From NCBI GenBank assembly GCA_013695435.1, contig JACDAM010000226.1, positions 1 through 38,018 of the forward strand: a stretch of DNA of 38,018 nt, read 5' to 3'. The stretch is from Burkholderiales bacterium (GTDB taxonomy: Bacteria; Pseudomonadota; Gammaproteobacteria; Burkholderiales; JACMKV01). Within the stretch, counting starts at the first letter, position 1, and each line of letters begins with the position of its first letter. Shown in pieces: positions 3,182 to 37,977 of this stretch. The notes beneath the pieces are model-generated. The model ran no database searches. It was given only the letters and a program-made list of their open reading frames with translations, and had not been told where the DNA came from. The position numbers and the translations under genes are program-made.

Positions 3182-6234
<3,053 letters not shown>

Positions 6235-26842: not shown

Positions 26843-27304
26843 ATGTTCTTGCAAATCGCGCTTTCCGTGCATCTGTTCGGCGCCGTGATCTGGGTCGGCG
26901 GCATGTTCTTCGCTTATTTTGCCCTGCGACCGGCAGCGGGAAAGACTTTGGCGCCGCCGCTGCGCCTGCCGCTGTGGGCGGCGACATTACAACGCTTCTT
27001 TGCCTGGGTATCCCTGGCTATCGTCCTGATCCTGGCAAGCGGGATCGCGATGATTATGCTGCTTGGCGGCTTTGGCGCGGTCGGGATTCACGTGCACGCG
27101 ATGCTGGCTATCGGCGTTGTCATGATGGCGGTGTTTGCCCATGTCTACTTTGCGCCTTTCAAAAAACTGCGCCGCAATGTAGAAGCGCAGGATTGGCAAG
27201 CGGGCGGCGACGCGCTGGCGCAGATACGTAAACTCGTCGCGCTCAATCTGGCTTTGGGGTTTTTGACAATCGCAGTTGCGACGCTGGGTTCGGCGACGCC
27301 CTAG
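26843..27304 (+). CDS. CopD-like four-helix inner-membrane protein
   Basis: A 153-aa hydrophobic protein with four predicted transmembrane helices (about residues 4-24, 50-75, 82-102 and 130-149). Helix 1 carries the HLFGAVIWVGGMFF pattern and helix 3 begins with HVHAML. These His-bearing helices resemble the CopD (PF05425-like) or DUF2269-type membrane domain, whose members may bind copper or heme. Substrate and role are unknown. It follows rnhB by 2 bp, probably co-transcribed. Its TAG stop shares the palindrome CTAG (27301-27304) with the stop of the opposing senB. Confidence 0.68.
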   Translation: MFLQIALSVHLFGAVIWVGGMFFAYFALRPAAGKTLAPPLRLPLWAATLQRFFAWVSLAIVLILASGIAMIMLLGGFGAVGIHVHAMLAIGVVMMAVFAHVYFAPFKKLRRNVEAQDWQAGGDALAQIRKLVALNLALGFLTIAVATLGSATP

Positions 27305-28248
27305 CCGAATTCGGCGATCAGTCGTTTCAGTGCGGCGCGTTCTCGTGCTGGAGTAACCAGCGATCGCCGCGCGCTGCCTTGTTTCTGCAGCAGCCGATAA
27401 AACCCGGCGTCGAACTCTACCCGTTCCAGCAGGGTGGCCAGGGCGCGCGCATCTTCGAGCGGAAAATACCCGGCGTAATGGCTGCCCAGCATGCCGATGT
27501 TGCCGGGAATGCGCGATGCGATGACCGGCACCCGGGCCGTCAGCGCTTCGGTGACTACGTTCGCGCCGCCTTCCATGCGCGAGCTGATAACAAGTACCCG
27601 CGCCCGCGCCAGGATGCGGCGCGCAGCCCAATGCGGCAGCTCGCCGAGCCAGCGGTAGCGCGGCTCGCTGCGCATGAATTGTTTCGCTTCGTCCGCGAAC
27701 GAAGCGGATAAGGCCCCGCCGATATGCGTGACAAGAATTCGACTTTCGTCGGTCAGGTAGCGCAAAGCAAGCGCTGCCCGGAACGGATCTTTCTCCTCGC
27801 GCAAATGGCCGCTGACGCAAATTTCGAAGCTGCGCTGTAAAGGTTTGGGCGCGGTTATCGGCCTGGTCGACTGATAGATGATGCGGGTTTTGTCGCGCAA
27901 AGCGGGCGTGAGCTCTCGCCCGCCCTGGTCTTGCAGCACGATCAACCGGGTAGCAAGCCGCAGCGATTGGCGTGCCTTCTCGTCGGTGCGAATATCGCGA
28001 TAGAGGTCGGTCCCGGTCAGCACAACGACCAACGCCCGTTCCGGAAACGCCATGGCGAATTCGCTGATTGAAGCATGGCTTTTGCGCGCGTGCAGCGCAA
28101 TCATCAGATCGGCCGTGCGTCGATCCCAGCAGGTTTGCACGGCTACGCGATGCCCGGCTTCGCGCAGGAATCCGGCCCAGCGATTCGCGGTCGCGCGATT
28201 GCCGAGCCGCGAGCGAGCGCCAGCCGGTGTAATCAAGACAATTTTCAA
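27301..28248 (-). CDS. senB: Putative selenosugar synthase SenB (TIGR04348-type glycosyltransferase)
   Basis: A 315-aa GT-B glycosyltransferase. The N-terminus KIVLITPAGARSRLGNRATA, the segment IALHARKSHASI, and VVLTGTDLYRDIRTDEKA are what I recognise as the TIGR04348 family, now known as SenB. The C-terminal donor half has RMEGGANVVTEAL and VIASRIPGNIGML. In the Variovorax paradoxus pathway SenB makes a selenosugar from a UDP-sugar and selenophosphate, and SenA then couples the selenium to hercynine. The divergent gene at 28555 is an EgtB-type protein, which strongly supports this reading. No selD/senC homologue lies in the window, so selenophosphate must come from elsewhere. The ATG 28248 has no clear Shine-Dalgarno. 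A general sugar transferase is the alternative. Confidence 0.83.
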   Translation of the reverse strand: MKIVLITPAGARSRLGNRATANRWAGFLREAGHRVAVQTCWDRRTADLMIALHARKSHASISEFAMAFPERALVVVLTGTDLYRDIRTDEKARQSLRLATRLIVLQDQGGRELTPALRDKTRIIYQSTRPITAPKPLQRSFEICVSGHLREEKDPFRAALALRYLTDESRILVTHIGGALSASFADEAKQFMRSEPRYRWLGELPHWAARRILARARVLVISSRMEGGANVVTEALTARVPVIASRIPGNIGMLGSHYAGYFPLEDARALATLLERVEFDAGFYRLLQKQGSARRSLVTPARERAALKRLIAEFG

Positions 28249-28270: not shown

Positions 28271-28466
28271 AGGGCCTGTTTACACTCATTCCATGCGCCC
28301 GTCTCTCCCTCGCCCCTTTGGGTTATCCCCCAGAAAGTCCGCATGCGGCGTTGCGGCTCCTTGCGAGGCAATAAGCATCGCTTCATCGCCGCGCCTTGCC
28401 TGCGGACTTTCTAGGGCAGACGCGCATGGAAATGAGGCACGCATGGAGTGAGTGTAAACAGGCCCT
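28271..28466. repeat. 196-bp palindromic repeat (copy A) in the senB-senA intergenic region
   Basis: The ends 28271-28296 and 28441-28466 are inverted repeats matching at 25 of 26 positions (outer motif agggcctgtttacactca). A second inverted pair lies inside: agaaagtccgca (28332-28343) with tgcggactttct (28401-28412). The element can thus fold into a long interrupted hairpin. I see no transposase gene and no clear target-site duplication. Copy B (37628-37896) has the same outer motif and layout. Short open frames on both strands here are products of the repeat and I do not call them genes. Confidence 0.8.
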
Positions 28467-28554: not shown

Positions 28555-29862
28555 ATGGACAGGCCTGACAGCGACTATCTCAAACGGATTTTGCATGATG
28601 GCGCCGCGCGCATCGTCGACATGATCGCGGATTTCGACGGACACCAACTGCTAGGCCCGCGGCTTCCGACCGTCAATCCGCCGTTGTGGGAGCTAGGACA
28701 CCTGGCGTGGTTTACCGAACGCTGGTGCCTGCGCCATCGCGGCCGCGATGGGTTGGCGCCAGCGCTGATCGCAAATGCCGACGCCTTGTACGACTCTGCG
28801 GCGGTCGCGCACGCTACGCGCTGGGATTTGCCGCTACTCGATATAGACAAAACGCGAAATTATTTATCCTCCGTCATCGAGCGCGTAAGTGAGCGCCTCG
28901 ACAACAACGATGTCGCGCATGATCTGCCGTACTTCGCGCAACTCGCTACCTACCATCAGGACATGCATGTCGAGGCATTTTTCTACACGCGGCAAACGCT
29001 CGGCTATACGAGACCACCGTTGCCTGTAAAACCTTGCCGCAAAGCCGGCGCATTCCCGGGCGATGTCGAGGTGGCCGGGGGGAATTTTCTGCTCGGCGCG
29101 GCGCCGGTCGATGGCTTCGTTTTCGATAACGAGAAATGGGCGCATGAAATCGTTCTCGAACCGTTTTCGATCGCCCGCGCTCCGGTTTCCAACGCCGAAT
29201 ATCTGGCTTTTGTCGAAGACGGCGGTTACGCGCGCCGTGAATGCTGGTCGGCGGAAGGTTGGGAATGGCGCGGCAGGATGAACGCGATATCGCCGGTTTA
29301 CTGGATTCACTGCGACGGTGCGTGGATGCATCGGGTGTTCGACGAAGTGCTCGCGCTGAATCCCGACGCGCCCGTGTTATTCGTCAACTGGTATGAAGCC
29401 GATGCCTGGTGCCGCTGGGCTGGTCGGCGTTTACCGGGCGAAGCGGAGTGGGAGAGGGCGGCCGCCGGTGCAATGGAGCCTGCCGCGAGCAAGCGCCGCT
29501 ATCCATGGGGCGATGAAACCCCGAATGACATGCACGCCAATTTCGACGGCATGACGGATGGATGCGCGGACGTTGCCGCGTTCGCCGCGGGCGATAGCGA
29601 AGCCGGTTGCCGCCAGATGCTCGGCAACGTCTGGGAATGGACGGCGGACTGGTTTGCGCCCTATCCGGGTTTTGTGCGCGACCCTTACAAGGAATATTCG
29701 GAACCATGGTTCGGAAATCACAAGGTCCTGCGCGGCGGCTCCTTCGCGACGCGTTCGCGTCTGATCCGCAACACCTGGCGCAATTTTTATACACCCGATC
29801 GGCGCGACGTGCTGGCTGGTTTTCGCGCATGCGCGCCCGTAATCCGCAGCCGAGCGGCTTGA
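28555..29862 (+). CDS. senA: Putative selenoneine synthase SenA (EgtB-like non-heme iron enzyme)
   Basis: A 435-aa two-domain protein. The N-terminal DinB-like bundle carries His49 (WELGHLAWF) and His134/His138 (YHQDMH), which match the three iron ligands of EgtB sulfoxide synthases. The C-terminal FGE-sulfatase/C-type-lectin domain (about 165-435) shows WCRWAGRRLPGEAEWERAA, GNVWEWTADWF and VLRGGSF. EgtB enzymes form the C-S bond of ergothioneine; SenA is the paralogue forming a C-Se bond between hercynine and a selenosugar. I choose SenA because of the divergent senB. Without that neighbour I would call it EgtB. No egtD or egtC is in the window. ATG 28555 lacks an obvious Shine-Dalgarno. The upstream 88 bp to repeat A hold only a weak TATAGC (28532-28537). 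Confidence 0.82.
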   Translation: MDRPDSDYLKRILHDGAARIVDMIADFDGHQLLGPRLPTVNPPLWELGHLAWFTERWCLRHRGRDGLAPALIANADALYDSAAVAHATRWDLPLLDIDKTRNYLSSVIERVSERLDNNDVAHDLPYFAQLATYHQDMHVEAFFYTRQTLGYTRPPLPVKPCRKAGAFPGDVEVAGGNFLLGAAPVDGFVFDNEKWAHEIVLEPFSIARAPVSNAEYLAFVEDGGYARRECWSAEGWEWRGRMNAISPVYWIHCDGAWMHRVFDEVLALNPDAPVLFVNWYEADAWCRWAGRRLPGEAEWERAAAGAMEPAASKRRYPWGDETPNDMHANFDGMTDGCADVAAFAAGDSEAGCRQMLGNVWEWTADWFAPYPGFVRDPYKEYSEPWFGNHKVLRGGSFATRSRLIRNTWRNFYTPDRRDVLAGFRACAPVIRSRAA

Positions 29863-30902: not shown

Positions 30903-32168
30903 TCAAACGAGCCCTTCAAGTACCTGCACCTCTACCATTTCGCCCGCCGCGACTTTTCCCTGCGCCACCGGCAGAACGATGAAGCAATTCGCCTCGCTCA
31001 TCGAACGCAGAATCCCCGAGCCCTGTTCGCCGCTCGCAAGCACTGTCCATTCGCCATTCGCGTCTTGTGATAAAAATCCGCGTTGAAACTCGGTGCGGCC
31101 GGGCGCTTTCTTGAGATCGCTGGCGCAACGCACCTTAAGCAGCGGCAAGGGGGGGGCGGGATCGCGGCCCATGAGCACGAGCAGCGCGTCGCGGACGAAT
31201 TGGTAAAACGTGACCATTACTGAAACCGGATTGCCCGGCAGACCGAAGAAATGCGCGCTACCGATTTTGCCGTAGGCGAGCGGGCGGCCGGGTTTCATCG
31301 CAATTTTCCAGAAAACCACTTCGCCCAGACGATCGAGTAGTTCCTTGACGAAATCGGCTTCGCCGACCGACACGCCACCGCTGGTGATGACGACATCGGC
31401 CATCGCGGCCGCATCGCTGAAAGCTTTTTCGAGCAGCGCCGGGTCATCGCCAACGACGCCCATGTCGATGGTTTCGACGCCGAGGCGATTCAGCATGCCC
31501 CAGATCGTGTAGCGGTTGCTGTCATAAATCTGGCCTTCTTCGAGCTGACTGCCTATCGTTCGCAGTTCGTCGCCGGTCGAAAAAAAAGCCACACGCAGTC
31601 GCCGGTAGACGGTAAGTTCGGCGACGCCGAGTGATGCGATCAGGCCGAGTTCGGCGGGCCGGATCAAGGCTCCGGGGCCGAGAGCCGTTTGCCCCTTGCG
31701 CAAATCTTCACCTGCGCGGCGGAGATTCTGGCCACGGCGATGGCCGCTACCGAACGTGACACGATCGCCTTCGGCTTCGGCATGTTCTTGCATGACGATG
31801 GTATCCGCACCCGCCGGAACCACCGCGCCGGTCATGATACGCACGGCTTGGTTCTCCCGAAGATCGTCACGGAATGGAACGCCCGCGTAAGCCGTGCCTG
31901 CAATTTTCAGAATCGTCTCGCCATTGGCATTCAGATCCGAAAAACGTAGGGCATAGCCGTCCATCGCCGAATTGTCGTGCGCCGGAACATCGACCGGCGA
32001 AATGACCGGCGCCGCCAGAACGCGGCCGAGTGCTGTGCGCAGGGCAAGTTGTTCAGTGCCGGCGACCGGATTCAGGAACTCGCGAATCAGCGCGCGCGCC
32101 TTATCGACCGGCAACGAGTTCGGGTCGTAATCGTCAGCGCAGCTCAAATCCCGGATTGGTTGTTTCAT
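30903..32168 (-). CDS. moeA: Molybdopterin molybdenumtransferase MoeA
   Basis: A 421-aa MoeA. It inserts molybdate or tungstate into adenylylated molybdopterin. The N-terminal part has DVPAHDNSAMDGYALR. The MoCF-binding domain has FSTGDEL, DSNRYTIWGML and VVITSGGVSVGEADFVKELL. KPGRPLAYGKI and [17 protein letters not shown] are typical, and the C-terminal beta domain is complete. Because it stands opposite an aor operon encoding a probable tungsten enzyme and a MoaD-like carrier, it may be the metal-insertion enzyme used for that cofactor. Mo versus W preference cannot be read from the sequence. Its 3' end converges with the rRNA methyltransferase. Confidence 0.95.
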   Translation of the reverse strand: MKQPIRDLSCADDYDPNSLPVDKARALIREFLNPVAGTEQLALRTALGRVLAAPVISPVDVPAHDNSAMDGYALRFSDLNANGETILKIAGTAYAGVPFRDDLRENQAVRIMTGAVVPAGADTIVMQEHAEAEGDRVTFGSGHRRGQNLRRAGEDLRKGQTALGPGALIRPAELGLIASLGVAELTVYRRLRVAFFSTGDELRTIGSQLEEGQIYDSNRYTIWGMLNRLGVETIDMGVVGDDPALLEKAFSDAAAMADVVITSGGVSVGEADFVKELLDRLGEVVFWKIAMKPGRPLAYGKIGSAHFFGLPGNPVSVMVTFYQFVRDALLVLMGRDPAPPLPLLKVRCASDLKKAPGRTEFQRGFLSQDANGEWTVLASGEQGSGILRSMSEANCFIVLPVAQGKVAAGEMVEVQVLEGLV

Positions 32169-32311: not shown

Positions 32312-32715
32312 CTAGGGCGCGCGGTAACCGATGCCGTGTTTATTGTAGATGCGCTTGACGGTGCCGTCGGCGAGCATTTGCCGCATGCCTTTTTCGAGGG
32401 CGGCAGCGAGTTCGGTGTTGTCGTCCTTGACTGCGAGGCCAAGTTTCCAGCCCTGTATAGCGAGACCCGCATTGGAACCTGGCTAACTTTGTAGCCATCT
32501 TTCGCCGAGCCCAGGCTCGCATCGAGCTCGGAACGCGGCGCCATCACAGCCGCGACCTCGCCGTTGCGCAAGGCTTTTACGGCAAGGGCAGGGCTGCGGA
32601 AATGCACGACATTGCTGCGCAACCTGCCGCTAAAGGCTTAAAGCAAATATATATCGGAGACCGTTTCCAGTTCGACGCCGATTTTTCCTTGGCGAAGATC
32701 TCGAGATTGGGAAGC
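32312..32715 (-). pseudogene. Decayed solute-binding protein gene (SBP family 3, amino-acid ABC type)
   Basis: Reading the minus strand, fragments of a periplasmic family-3 solute-binding protein appear. First is LRQGKIGVELETVSDIYLL, then an in-frame TAA (32638-32640). The same frame continues as AFSGRLRSNVVHF, VKALRNGEVAAVMAPRSELD and GYKVSQVP. Near 32471 the frame shifts. The neighbouring frame then gives AGLAIQGWKLGLAVKDD, ELAAALEKGMRQMLADG, VKRIYNKHGIGYRAP and a stop at 32312-32314. The N-terminal signal peptide and first lobe are missing. One stop, one frameshift and a 5' deletion mean it is not functional as read. It fills most of the gap between moeA and the aor promoter, with no permease or ATPase gene beside it. 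Confidence 0.8.
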
Positions 32716-32738
32716 GTCGGAATGCTTTAATCAGGCGA

Positions 32739-32754
32739 TGGCATGGTACTTGCG
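32739..32754 (+). promoter_or_regulatory. Sigma54 (RpoN) -24/-12 promoter candidate for the aor operon
   Basis: The sequence tggcatggtacttgcg has GG at 32740-32741 and GC at 32752-32753 with exactly 10 bases between them. It fits the consensus TGGCAYGN4TTGC through the TTGC at its 3' side. Transcription should start around 32765, giving a ~64-nt leader to aorA. An activator of the bEBP type would be required; none is encoded in the window, and I did not identify its binding sites in the upstream pseudogene. Confidence 0.6.
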
Positions 32755-32828
32755 CGGGCGATGGAGGATAATATGCACCGCAAGTCATAGTTCGCCACAA
32801 GTTCGTCTGAAATTACCAAGGAGGAGTC

Positions 32829-33320
32829 ATGCAGAGGGCGCTACATTTAAACCCGGATAAATGCACGGGTTGCCTGCAATGTGAAATGGCCTGTTCTTTC
32901 GAAAACGAAGGCGTGTTCAATACCGCGAAATCGCGCATCAAGGTTTTTGAGTTTCACCATTACGGCCGCAAAGTTCCCTACACCTGTACCCAGTGCGAGG
33001 AAGCGTGGTGCATGCACGCGTGCCCGGTCGAGGCGATCAAGATCGATGCGACAACCGGCGCCAAGTTCGTGCTCGACGACATCTGTGTCGGCTGCAAGGT
33101 CTGTACGATTGCGTGCCCGTTCGGCACCATCAACTACAATCACGATACCGGCAAGGCGCAGAAATGCGATTTGTGCTTCGGCAATCCGGCGTGCGCTGAA
33201 GCGTGCCCGACCGGCGCCATCACTTACATCGATTCCGACTGGACCGGCCTCGAGCGCATGCAGGCGTACGCTGCCAAATCCGATAACGAGGGCGTTGGCG
33301 CCCAGCCCGCACAGGCTTGA
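32829..33320 (+). CDS. aorA: Aldehyde oxidoreductase iron-sulfur subunit AorA
   Basis: A 163-aa ferredoxin-like protein with 16 cysteines in four clusters of four: Cys12/15/18/22, Cys53/56/61/65, Cys86/89/92/96 and Cys113/116/122/126, each followed by Pro or a typical residue. This predicts four [4Fe-4S] clusters in a polyferredoxin chain. The size (~17 kDa) and position before an AOR catalytic subunit match AorA of the Aromatoleum aromaticum tungsten aldehyde oxidoreductase, where AorA passes electrons between the catalytic and FAD subunits and can polymerise. The start ATG 32829 has an ideal Shine-Dalgarno AAGGAGG (32818-32824). The last ~25 residues are Ala/Gln-rich and probably flexible. 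Confidence 0.88.
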   Translation: MQRALHLNPDKCTGCLQCEMACSFENEGVFNTAKSRIKVFEFHHYGRKVPYTCTQCEEAWCMHACPVEAIKIDATTGAKFVLDDICVGCKVCTIACPFGTINYNHDTGKAQKCDLCFGNPACAEACPTGAITYIDSDWTGLERMQAYAAKSDNEGVGAQPAQA

Positions 33321-33335
33321 ATCGAGGAGAACATC

Positions 33336-35183
33336 ATGGCATGGCATAAACAAGTATTACGCGTGAATCTGACCGATGGCACCTGCAAGGCCGAGCCGCT
33401 GAACATGCAATGGGCACAGGATTACCTCGGCCAGCGCGGCCTCGCCAGTAAATATCTGATCGAGGAAATCGATCCCAAAATCGATGCGCTGTCGCCGCAG
33501 AACAAGATCATTTATGCGACCGGCCCGTTGACCGGCACCATGGCGTCGACCGGCGGCCGCTACTCGGTGATTACCAAGAGTCCGTTGACCGGCACCATCG
33601 CGTGCTCGAATTCCGGCGGCTACTTCGGCGCGGAACTGCGTTTTGCCGGCTGGGACATGATCATCGTCGAAGGCAAAGCCGCCAAGCCGGTGTATCTGCA
33701 TATCGAAAATGAAAAGGTCGAACTGCTGCCGGCCGATGCACTCTGGGGCAAAACCGTTTGGGAGACCGAACCCTGGATCAAGAAAAAACATCAGGACCCG
33801 CTGACGCGCGTGACTTCGATCGGCCGCGCCGGCGAAAACCAGGTGCTGTACGCGGCGATCGTCAACGATCTGCATCGCGCCGCCGGACGTTCGGGCGTGG
33901 GTGCTGTGATGGGCGCGAAGAACCTCAAAGCGATCGCGGTGCGCGGCACGAAAGGCGTGACCAATATCGCCAATCCGAAAGAATTCATGAAAGCCACGTT
34001 CGCCGGCAAGAAGATCCTCGCCGATAACGCTGTCACCGGCCAGGGCCTGCCGAAATATGGCACGCAAGTGCTGATGAACGTGATCAACGAGATCGGCGCT
34101 TCGCCGACGCGCAATCACCGCGACGTGCAATTCGAAGGCGCTTCCAAGATTTCGGGTGAGGCGATGCACGAGATACGCGCGACCGACGGCAAGGCGAATC
34201 TGGTAACGAATCAGGCGTGCTTCGGCTGCACCATCGCGTGCGGCCGCATTTCAAAAATCGACGAGACGCATTTCTCGGTGCAGAACAAGCCCGAGTACTG
34301 GGGCGCATCCGGCGGGCTCGAATACGAAGCGGCCTGGGCGCTCGGTAATGCCAACGGCGTTGACGACATCGAGGCGCTGACATTCGCCAACTTCCTCTGC
34401 AACGAAGACGGTTTCGATCCGATTTCGTTTGGCGCGACGGTCGGCGCAGCAATGGAGTTGTTCGAGATGGGCGTGATCACCGAAAAAGATACCGGCATTG
34501 CAGCGCCATTCGGCTCGGCTGAAGCGCTTTGCAAATTCGCCGAATGGACAGCGCGCGGTGAAGGCTTCGGCAAGATACTCGCGCTGGGCTCGAAGCGCAT
34601 GTGCGAAAAATACGGCCACCCGGAATTGTCGATGACCGTGAAAGGCCAGGAGTTTCCGGCTTACGATGCGCGCGGCATTCAGGGCATGGGCCTGGCGTAT
34701 GCGACCGCGAATCGCGGCGCATGCCACCTGCGCGGTTACACGGTTGCATCGGAAGTGCTCGGCATTCCGGTCAAGACCGATCCGCTGGTCAGCGACGGCA
34801 AGGCTGAGCTGACGAAGGCGTTTCAGGACGCCACCGCGGTCGTCGATTCAGCCGGGATTTGCGTGTTCACGACCTTCGCCTGGACCTTGAACGACATCCA
34901 GCCGCAGTTGCAGGCGGCATGTGAAGGCGACTGGTCGATGGACAAATTGAACCTGATGGGCGAACGCATCTGGAACATGGAGCGCGAATTTAACAACGCC
35001 GCCGGGTTCACCGAGAAGGACGACACGCTGCCGAAACGGCTGTTGACCGAAGGGGCGAAAACCGGTCCCGCCAAAGGCAAAGTCAACGAGCTCTCGAAAA
35101 TGCTGCCGGAATACTACAAAGTCCGCGGCTGGACGCCGGAAGGCAAGCCGACCCCGGAAACGCGTCAGCGGCTCGGGCTTTAA
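33336..35183 (+). CDS. aorB: Tungsten-dependent aldehyde:ferredoxin oxidoreductase catalytic subunit AorB
   Basis: A 615-aa AOR-family catalytic subunit oxidising aldehydes to carboxylic acids on a bis-metallopterin tungsten centre. The [4Fe-4S] ligands are Cys295, Cys298 and Cys302 (CFGCTIAC), with Cys509 (AGICVF) as the fourth. The pterin-binding regions SIGRAGEN, AAGRSGVGAVMGAKNLKAI and DARGIQGMGLAYATANRGA are intact. There is no signal peptide, so it should be cytoplasmic. Size and neighbours match the mesophilic AorABC type, not the archaeal stand-alone enzyme. The substrate cannot be deduced. GAGGAG seven bases before ATG 33336 supports the start; aorA ends 15 bp upstream. Confidence 0.93.
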   Translation: MAWHKQVLRVNLTDGTCKAEPLNMQWAQDYLGQRGLASKYLIEEIDPKIDALSPQNKIIYATGPLTGTMASTGGRYSVITKSPLTGTIACSNSGGYFGAELRFAGWDMIIVEGKAAKPVYLHIENEKVELLPADALWGKTVWETEPWIKKKHQDPLTRVTSIGRAGENQVLYAAIVNDLHRAAGRSGVGAVMGAKNLKAIAVRGTKGVTNIANPKEFMKATFAGKKILADNAVTGQGLPKYGTQVLMNVINEIGASPTRNHRDVQFEGASKISGEAMHEIRATDGKANLVTNQACFGCTIACGRISKIDETHFSVQNKPEYWGASGGLEYEAAWALGNANGVDDIEALTFANFLCNEDGFDPISFGATVGAAMELFEMGVITEKDTGIAAPFGSAEALCKFAEWTARGEGFGKILALGSKRMCEKYGHPELSMTVKGQEFPAYDARGIQGMGLAYATANRGACHLRGYTVASEVLGIPVKTDPLVSDGKAELTKAFQDATAVVDSAGICVFTTFAWTLNDIQPQLQAACEGDWSMDKLNLMGERIWNMEREFNNAAGFTEKDDTLPKRLLTEGAKTGPAKGKVNELSKMLPEYYKVRGWTPEGKPTPETRQRLGL

Positions 35184-35330: not shown

Positions 35331-36611
35331 ATGAACCACGTCATCATCGGCAACGGGCCAACCGGCATCATCGCGGCCGAAACCCTGCGCAAGGAAGATC
35401 CTCAATGCACGATCACAGTGATCGGCGATGAGCCCGAGCTGCCGTATTCGCGCATGGCGATTCCCTATTATCTGATTGGCGGCATCGACGAACGCGGGTT
35501 GCATTTGCGCAAGGATGAACAGCATTTCCGCAATCTCAAAATCGATCTGATCGATCTACCGGCCACGCGCGTCGATGCGGGCAAGCGCCAAGTGTTATTG
35601 AAGGATGGCCAGAAGCTCGATTACGACAAGCTCCTGATCGCGACAGGTTCGAAACCTGCAAGTGCGCCGATTCCGGGTATCGATCTGCCGGGCGTCCATA
35701 GTTGCTGGACCCTGGATGACGCTCGGCACATCGCAAAGATCGCCAAGCCTGGCGCACGCGTCGTGCAAATGGGCGCCGGCTTCATCGGCTGCATCATTCT
35801 TGAAGCGCTGGCGTCGCGCGGCGTCGAGTTGACGGTTATCGAAATGGGCAACCGCATGGTGCCGCGCATGATGACTGACGGAGCCGGCTCCCTGATCAAG
35901 AAATGGTGCGAGAAAAAAGGTGTCAAGGTTTACACCGCGACCAAAGTTACGGCGATCGAGAAAGCCGAACCGAAGGCGCAGGCTGGCGGTCCGTTGCGAG
36001 TGAAGCTCGATAACGGCAAAGTGCTCGACGCCGATCTCGTCATCAGCGCAACCGGCGTGCGGCCGAACATCGAGTTTCTCAAGGGCACGGGCATCAAAAC
36101 GGAGGCTGGTGTGCTGGTCGATGCCGACATGCAAACGAATATCCCGGGCATCTATGCGGCGGGCGATGTCGCGCAGGCCACCGAATTCAACACCGGCCAC
36201 CGCATCGTCAATGCAATCCAACCGAATGCGGCCGATCAGGCATTGGTTGCCGCGCGCAATATGGCCGGCAAAACCACGCGATCGCAGGGCACGATGGCGA
36301 TCAACGTGCTCGACACAATGGGCCTGATTTCGTCCTCGTTCGGGCAATGGATGGGTGTCGAAGGCGGCGATCACGCCGAACTGACGGATGCGGAAAATTT
36401 CCGCTACCTGCGGCTTGAATTCAAGGATGACGTTTTGATCGGGGCGACTTCCCTCGGCTTGACCGAACATGTCGGCGTCATCCGCGGGCTGATTCAAAGC
36501 CGACTCCATCTGCGCGAGTGGAAAGAGCTGCTGATGCAGGATCCGACGCGCTTTGTCGACGCTTACATCGCACGTTCGCAAGGCAGCGAGGAACTCGCAG
36601 CCCGGCCGTAG
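35331..36611 (+). CDS. aorC: FAD-dependent NAD(P)H oxidoreductase subunit AorC
   Basis: A 426-aa pyridine-nucleotide-disulfide-oxidoreductase fold. The first dinucleotide motif is VIIGNGPTGIIAAETL. The second, for NAD(P)H, is VVQMGAGFIGCIILEAL. The FAD closing motif is IPGIYAAGDVAQA. A C-terminal dimer-like domain follows (about 330-426). In the A. aromaticum enzyme the ~46-kDa AorC links aldehyde oxidation to NAD+ reduction through AorA; size and order agree. I choose ATG 35331 with GAGG at 35320-35323, since the earlier frame from 35256 runs through the palindrome region and lacks family residues. A 147-bp gap separates it from aorB. Confidence 0.88.
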   Translation: MNHVIIGNGPTGIIAAETLRKEDPQCTITVIGDEPELPYSRMAIPYYLIGGIDERGLHLRKDEQHFRNLKIDLIDLPATRVDAGKRQVLLKDGQKLDYDKLLIATGSKPASAPIPGIDLPGVHSCWTLDDARHIAKIAKPGARVVQMGAGFIGCIILEALASRGVELTVIEMGNRMVPRMMTDGAGSLIKKWCEKKGVKVYTATKVTAIEKAEPKAQAGGPLRVKLDNGKVLDADLVISATGVRPNIEFLKGTGIKTEAGVLVDADMQTNIPGIYAAGDVAQATEFNTGHRIVNAIQPNAADQALVAARNMAGKTTRSQGTMAINVLDTMGLISSSFGQWMGVEGGDHAELTDAENFRYLRLEFKDDVLIGATSLGLTEHVGVIRGLIQSRLHLREWKELLMQDPTRFVDAYIARSQGSEELAARP

Positions 36612-36634: not shown

Positions 36635-36886
36635 ATGAAAATCAAGTTGAAGTTGTTCGCCACGCTGACCGATTATCTGCCGCAGCCCGCCAAAAAAAAT
36701 GAGATAGAGATTGAGGTCGCGGCAAATGCGACGGTCGGTTCGGTCATCGAGCGGTATAATCTGCCGCCGAAGCTAGTGCATCTCGTTCTCGTCAACGGCC
36801 TGTATATTTATCCGCACGACCGCACTACCCAGAATTTGAACGAGGGCGACGCGCTCGCGATCTGGCCGCCGATTGCAGGCGGTTAG
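36635..36886 (+). CDS. MoaD/ThiS-like sulfur-carrier protein of the aor operon
   Basis: An 83-aa ubiquitin-fold protein (KIKLKLFATLTDYLP at the start) that ends in Gly-Gly (PPIAGG). The C-terminal Gly-Gly is the thiocarboxylate site used to deliver sulfur to the metallopterin dithiolene. Its position 23 bp after aorC suggests a dedicated MoaD for the tungsten cofactor of AorB, probably serving beside a housekeeping moaD. The ATG at 36635 has no strong Shine-Dalgarno. The longer frame starting at 36518 lies inside aorC. Whether it acts in W-cofactor, Mo-cofactor or thiamine synthesis is inferred from context. Confidence 0.87.
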   Translation: MKIKLKLFATLTDYLPQPAKKNEIEIEVAANATVGSVIERYNLPPKLVHLVLVNGLYIYPHDRTTQNLNEGDALAIWPPIAGG

Positions 36887-37627: not shown

Positions 37628-37896
37628 AGGGCCTGCTCACACATAAATCATGCCCCGCTTTGCCCCCAAACCGGGATGATCACGCGAAGCGGGACCCTCG
37701 TGAAGGGCCATTCCCTTCACAAGGGTCCGCGACAAAGTGAGCGCCCGGTTTGGGGTAACCCGTAGGGCTTTGGTCTGGCGGGCGCGCTGCCGCGTTGGCC
37801 GTCGCTTGCAGGGAACGGCCCTGCGGTGCGCCGTCCGCCTCGCATCGCATCCCGCGAGACCAAAGCGCGGGGCATGATTTAGGTGTGACAAGCCCT
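37628..37896. repeat. 269-bp palindromic repeat (copy B) after the ParA gene
   Basis: The ends are imperfect inverted repeats: 37628-37662 begins agggcctgctcacacataaa, and 37861-37896 read backwards begins agggcttgtcacacctaaa. An inner perfect-to-near-perfect stem surrounds 37700-37730 (gacccTcgtgaaggg against cccttcacaagggtc). A third pairing is ctttggtct (37768-37776) with agaccaaag (37857-37865). The outer motif and layout match copy A at 28271-28466. This accounts for most of the 380-bp gap before the next gene. I see no transposase. Confidence 0.75.
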
Positions 37897-37977
37897 GGCC
37901 ACGAAGTGCCCCCCATAAACCGATTCGTGGCAAAATGTCGCATCGGTTGTACCCTGAAATCTCCTTAAAGGATGCCA

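Follow-up and report, generated by a model that had tools for sequence, protein, structure and literature searches.

Sigma-54 control of aor through the regulator AorR, with TGT-N10-12-ACA sites, has been predicted for nine Clostridiales species (BMC Genomics 2019, PMC6615313). AorR is an enhancer-binding protein (EBP) with a Fis-type HTH, its sites consist of inverted TGT and ACA halves 10-12 bp apart, as in the sigma-54 relatives described below, and the sigma-54 promoter lies directly before the aldehyde oxidoreductase gene, as does the box analyzed here; the Clostridium target is aor-moaD, predicted for alcohol synthesis, and not an aorABC operon (PMC6615313). Aromatoleum aromaticum EbN1 possesses an aorABCDE operon (PMC6365974), and that report contains no promoter analysis. 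The same gene order (aorA-aorB-aorC-moaD-like) and enzyme type are found in the stretch of DNA analyzed here, 38,018 nucleotides of a Burkholderiales genome (contig JACDAM010000226.1; hereafter the window), where the 4Fe-4S, AFOR and FAD subunit genes of an aorABC tungsten aldehyde oxidoreductase operon follow one another in order (Table 1).

Table 1. Features of the aor locus in the window and of the DNA upstream of it.
Feature	Position	Strand	Remarks
moeA	30903..32168	-	With the solute-binding-protein gene, common to the sister genome; fixes synteny
Relic of family-3 solute-binding protein gene (PedG/XoxJ-like)	32313..32726	-	88% DNA identity to sister genome G026
Interval equivalent to the upstream activating sequence (UAS) of box-bearing orthologues	32617..32698	.	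Relic coding sequence here; UAS absent
aorA leader/promoter segment	32727..32828	+	Without counterpart in the sister contig; starts at the putative deletion/rearrangement junction
Sigma-54 -24/-12 type element TGGCATGGTACTTGCG	32739..32754	+	GG 32740-41, GC 32752-53; orthologue boxes similarly placed
aorA Shine-Dalgarno AGGAGG	32819..32824	+	4 nt before ATG
aorA, four-cluster ferredoxin subunit	32829..33320	+	
aorB, tungsten aldehyde oxidoreductase subunit	33336..35183	+	AFOR_N, AFOR_C
aorC, FAD/NAD subunit	35331..36611	+	
MoaD/ThiS-like gene (aorD/E-like)	36635..36886	+	

Elsewhere in the window, the selenoneine biosynthesis genes for SenB (27301-28248, - strand) and SenA (28555-29862, + strand) both exceed NCBIfam cut-offs, and a long inverted-repeat element lies between them. 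Two elements at 28272-28466 and 37632-37898, each bearing long terminal inverted repeats (GGGCCTGTTTACACTCATTCCATGCG... and GGGCCTGCTCACACATAAATCATGCCCC...), resemble short mobile elements.

The original prediction placed a near-consensus sigma-54 promoter before aorA, and its sequence claim is borne out: TGGCATGGTACTTGCG fits TGGCAYGN4TTGC exactly on the + strand, with 10 bases between GG and GC. Against TGGCAYGN4TTGCW it matches 11 of 12 positions, the sole mismatch being the final W, here G. Its close upstream placement also stands, with a measured gap to the aorA ATG of 74 nt instead of the 75 bp first given, and the Shine-Dalgarno sequence, described earlier as ideal, is strong but somewhat close to the start codon. 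Transcription from the box would be predicted to start near 32765.

No other site in the 38-kb window comes within one mismatch of the consensus. The 2.97-Mb genome contains 10 exact matches including this one, whereas Markov models built on the window predict 4.4-7.7 per genome, 0.06-0.1 per window and 1.5-2.6e-4 in 200 bp of one strand. The number of exact sites thus barely exceeds chance, but their placement is clearly non-random: about five of the ten are sense-oriented and no more than ~110 bp before an ORF, compared with 0.2-0.5 expected (~10x chance). As named by reading their translations, these ORFs are HDOD-type, hemerythrin-like, MFS-type, small exported and aorA. Sites with at most one mismatch number 136 genome-wide, versus 77 for a reversed control pattern, and an exact search of viral contigs for the box gave no match. 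These numbers bear on a first rival explanation, that the sigma-54 likeness is a functionless chance match and aorA is read from a sigma-70-type promoter in 32727-32820. The near-chance genome total fits this explanation, and GATAAT/TATGCA at 32767-32777 resembles a TATGCA that some orthologues have ~55-75 bp ahead of aorA; yet the probability of an exact match is only ~2e-4 per upstream region, the exact sites are strongly concentrated before genes, and a simple sigma-70 scan found no + strand promoter before aorA.

Comparison with orthologous promoters provided further evidence. aorB loci were gathered from order-level genomes and GTDB contigs, aorA was located, and 90 distinct upstream regions were compared. 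With the window excluded, seven boxes scored at least 11/12, against a mean of 0.2 in shuffled sequences (maximum 2 in 300 rounds) and none on the reverse strand or in aorA coding DNA. At a score of at least 10 there were nine in ~89 regions versus a shuffled mean of 2.1, but the same two controls reached 8 and 9, respectively, so that only the class scoring at least 11 stands clearly above background by the box alone. Orthologue boxes are found between -77 and -128 relative to aorA, apart from a single one at -173; the window box, at -90, falls inside the main range, which argues against a chance match. A TGT-N10-12-ACA motif 20-125 bp above the box, whose definition was drawn from the very relatives used for the count, occurs at seven of the nine loci scoring at least 10, compared with 6 of 80 others (Fisher p = 8e-6). 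In the sigma-54 relatives the UAS is TGT-N11-ACA, 40-105 bp above the box; L161 has a UAS besides its box, and L121 and L160 have degenerate versions.

Four loci (L082, L086, L121 and L156) encode a full-length AcoR-type EBP within ~4.5 kb, as do some loci without a strict box. Their gene order is divergent EBP, c-type cytochrome, family-3 solute-binding protein, box and aorABC, with one extra gene in L156; by domain and neighborhood, we assign the cytochrome to PedF and the solute-binding protein to PedG/XoxJ, which assist PQQ alcohol dehydrogenases as accessory proteins (PMC12997753). The aor-linked regulators of the relatives are AcoR/DhaR-like (GAF-AAA+-HTH_8) and sit with PQQ alcohol dehydrogenase accessory genes, and an alcohol or aldehyde would therefore be a likelier signal for sigma-54 aor loci than the nitrogen state or aromatic compound proposed originally, for which we found no support. 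L160 and L161 both have a box but lack an AcoR-type EBP within ~7 kb, so a neighboring EBP is not a requirement, and both fall within the 18-row clade of the window in the AorB tree (support 98). The nearest orthologues by AorB (L158, L159/L076 and the gammaproteobacterial L102, L117, L111 and L137) have no box, and Azoarcus/Thauera aor loci have weak boxes at best. Conservation of the motif before aorA orthologues, which the original prediction had named as a check and whose absence it took as a refutation, is thus seen in a minority of the other regions and is lacking in those closest to the window. Taken as promoter predictions, these comparisons point to sigma-54 promoters before aorA as a real but infrequent arrangement, and they support sigma-54 control of some aor operons.

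Two other features were observed upstream of orthologous aorA genes. A similar ORF of ~740 aa, which reads like a TonB-dependent receptor and might take up metal for the enzyme, lies directly before aorA and its sigma-54 box in L157, L160 and L161. The Methyloversatilis-type loci L077, L078, L079 and L093, which have an adjacent AcoR-type EBP, share a perfect palindrome, TGTCCAGNNNCTGGACA, at about -181 to -186 before aorA, and no -24/-12 box is recognizable in them.

A different arrangement was found at ~29 aor loci, mostly from Comamonadaceae and related Burkholderiales. Here a divergent regulator of ~380 residues, encoded ~0.06-1.3 kb before aorA (for example, in L103, L105, L107, L116, L123 and L141), lacks an AAA+ domain; its sequence can be aligned with two parts of the AcoR-type EBP, the N-terminal sensor region and the C-terminal HTH_8. 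A TGTYTCA-N3-TGAGAAT-type operator is present in 26 of these 29 loci, mostly 143-155 bp before aorA, with a close variant in the other three; a second conserved palindrome, CTAGGGNTNNCCCT, lies further down. The TGTYTCA-N3-TGAGAAT operator was found in 0 of 16 sigma-54 or EBP loci tested. The regulator looks like an EBP that lost its motor and now acts as an ordinary DNA-binding regulator. We tentatively suggest, with some doubt, that bacterial aor operons have repeatedly switched among three control states: an AcoR-type EBP with UAS and box; the motorless regulator, in which the AcoR-like sensor and HTH_8 would be kept, the AAA+ domain lost, the operator fixed near -145 and the box absent; and, in the genome of the window, a box amputated from its enhancer and activator through deletion. 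If true, one target gene would bear the traces of several routes by which enhancer-dependent control was lost. No sigma-54 box was found in the ~30 loci without the AAA+ domain which, like the boxless nearest orthologues and the lack of a UAS in the window, would fit a chance match; with the evidence from position and placement on the other side, we consider a chance match unlikely.

The enhancer half of the promoter, expected 40-250 bp upstream, appears to be missing before the box, although one of unrecognized sequence may exist. A search with known patterns detected no TGT-N10-12-ACA, NtrC-type or NorR-type activator site within 600 bp upstream of the box and no FhlA-like or IHF pattern near it, and all matches to the operator in the aorA upstream region stay below 9/12. 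Exact GNAACANNTGTTNC occurs once in the genome, in unrelated surroundings, and solitary UAS-like sites in this genome (G000) and in the sister genome G026 were dismissed because their surroundings are likewise unrelated. When the sigma-54 leaders of the relatives were aligned with the window leader, no homology was seen except at the box and the aorA start.

Comparison with G026 revealed what occupies this DNA instead. The alignment of the window with sister contigs L175/L177 stops at 32726, only 13 bp above the box, and the UAS-equivalent interval is therefore relic coding sequence; both assemblies are fragmented and the sister is a metagenome bin, so this junction could be a misassembly. The relic is 5'-truncated and, compared with its intact counterpart in the sister (L177 2078-2956, SBP_bac_3), has lost a single nucleotide at two places. 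In G026 the order is moeA, intact solute-binding protein, cytochrome c and a divergent AcoR-type regulator, of which the first 59 codons are present at a contig end; this 59-residue start has no match in G000. We rejected an ordinary amino-acid transporter as the identity of the upstream gene remnant, since its intact homologue is linked to the cytochrome c and AcoR-type regulator genes. L177 also has a sigma-54-like box, GGGCACCCTATTTGCT, at 3388-3403 (- strand) before the cytochrome c gene, divergent from the regulator. On L178 (1-190), the sister aorB has no aorA directly upstream, possibly an assembly effect of the contig end; the rest of the G026 assembly yielded no aorA either. The family of the window (two genomes in all) and the nearest family (three, two with aor) yielded no further aorA upstream regions.

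A mechanism is proposed in which the window box is a genuine sigma-54 promoter box that was severed from its enhancer and activator gene by deletion or rearrangement, a reading to which we give about even weight. In the relatives, opening of the sigma-54 closed complex would fall to an AcoR/AorR-type EBP bound at the TGT-N11-ACA UAS, and aor is coupled with a PQQ alcohol dehydrogenase module of the periplasm. In the lineage of the window, which we infer once had a UAS at its aor promoter, a deletion or rearrangement with its scar at 32726/32727 would have put what remains of the PedG/XoxJ-like gene, its decaying 3' portion, in place of the UAS region, with loss of the cytochrome c and EBP genes in the same event. 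Binding of sigma-54 polymerase to the box probably persists, but the box would now be poorly activated: sigma-54 holoenzyme sits inactive at many sites (PMC4591121) and activator-independent sigma-54 transcription is rare in vivo (PMC4551910), and an enhancerless box is thus expected to be weak. For any present activity an EBP would have to act in trans, and the operon may be transcribed weakly or from another promoter. The box, the relic, the intact genes of the sister, the lack of a UAS and the absence of the sister EBP start from the genome are the observed parts of this reading. Against it stand the boxless nearest orthologues and the ancestry at the locus itself, which is unseen because the region upstream of the sister aorA is not in the G026 assembly.

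Activation in trans could also mean that the promoter works fully, driven by the regulator L010 or an NtrC-like regulator from a distant or unrecognized enhancer or from solution. The genome does have the necessary machinery, with a single rpoN gene (G000:C55, E 3e-64) and ~12 strong Sigma54_activat matches, corresponding to ~12 EBPs (AAA+, GAFTGA) that include NtrC, a PrsR-type PEP-CTERM response regulator, and GlrR-like and NorR-like proteins. The window gene list contains no EBP gene near aor; the EBPs of the genome are encoded on other contigs. Its only AcoR/DhaR-like GAF-AAA+-HTH_8 EBP, L010 (L155 3781-5760, - strand), is ~41-46% identical to the aor-linked EBPs of the relatives; retention of this protein and of a xoxF-type alcohol dehydrogenase gene, and the lack of an adjacent EBP in L160/L161, are consistent with activation in trans. 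L010 adjoins a formaldehyde-activating-type gene and, by reading of translations, tetrahydromethanopterin-related C1 genes rather than aor. The absence of AcoR-, NtrC- and NorR-type sites and of an operator match reaching 9/12, and the single copy of GNAACANNTGTTNC in unrelated surroundings, weigh against a fully working promoter, which we judge unlikely. Given its C1 neighbors, L010 may regulate C1 or alcohol oxidation. Counting the severed promoter and the trans-activated promoter together, the box is probably a true sigma-54 element. The original claim of RpoN control through an enhancer-binding activator is therefore upheld in part: rpoN, the EBPs and the combination of box, UAS and EBP in several orthologous lineages agree with it, but upstream activator sites and a nearby EBP gene are missing here.

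Set against the AorR-type regulon of Clostridium, the window thus has neither a linked Fis-HTH EBP nor a TGT-N10-12-ACA UAS before aor. Control by an enhancer cannot be claimed from a near-perfect -24/-12 box alone; comparison allows the remaining half of the promoter to be checked, and here it appears to be missing. The Pseudomonas ped/exa PQQ alcohol dehydrogenase clusters contain a PedF-like cytochrome c and a PedG-like solute-binding protein, as found upstream of aor in the relatives, but use AgmR/PedR-type LuxR regulators in place of AcoR-type EBPs and have no aor (PMC12997753); the PedG-like part of this module survives as the relic in the window. The tie between sigma-54 aor loci and PQQ alcohol dehydrogenase modules again suggests an alcohol or aldehyde signal. 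As far as the literature consulted shows, the proteobacterial sigma-54 aor cases are new members of the kind predicted in Clostridium, and they extend sigma-54/EBP control of tungsten aldehyde oxidoreductase, as a prediction, to proteobacterial aorABC operons.
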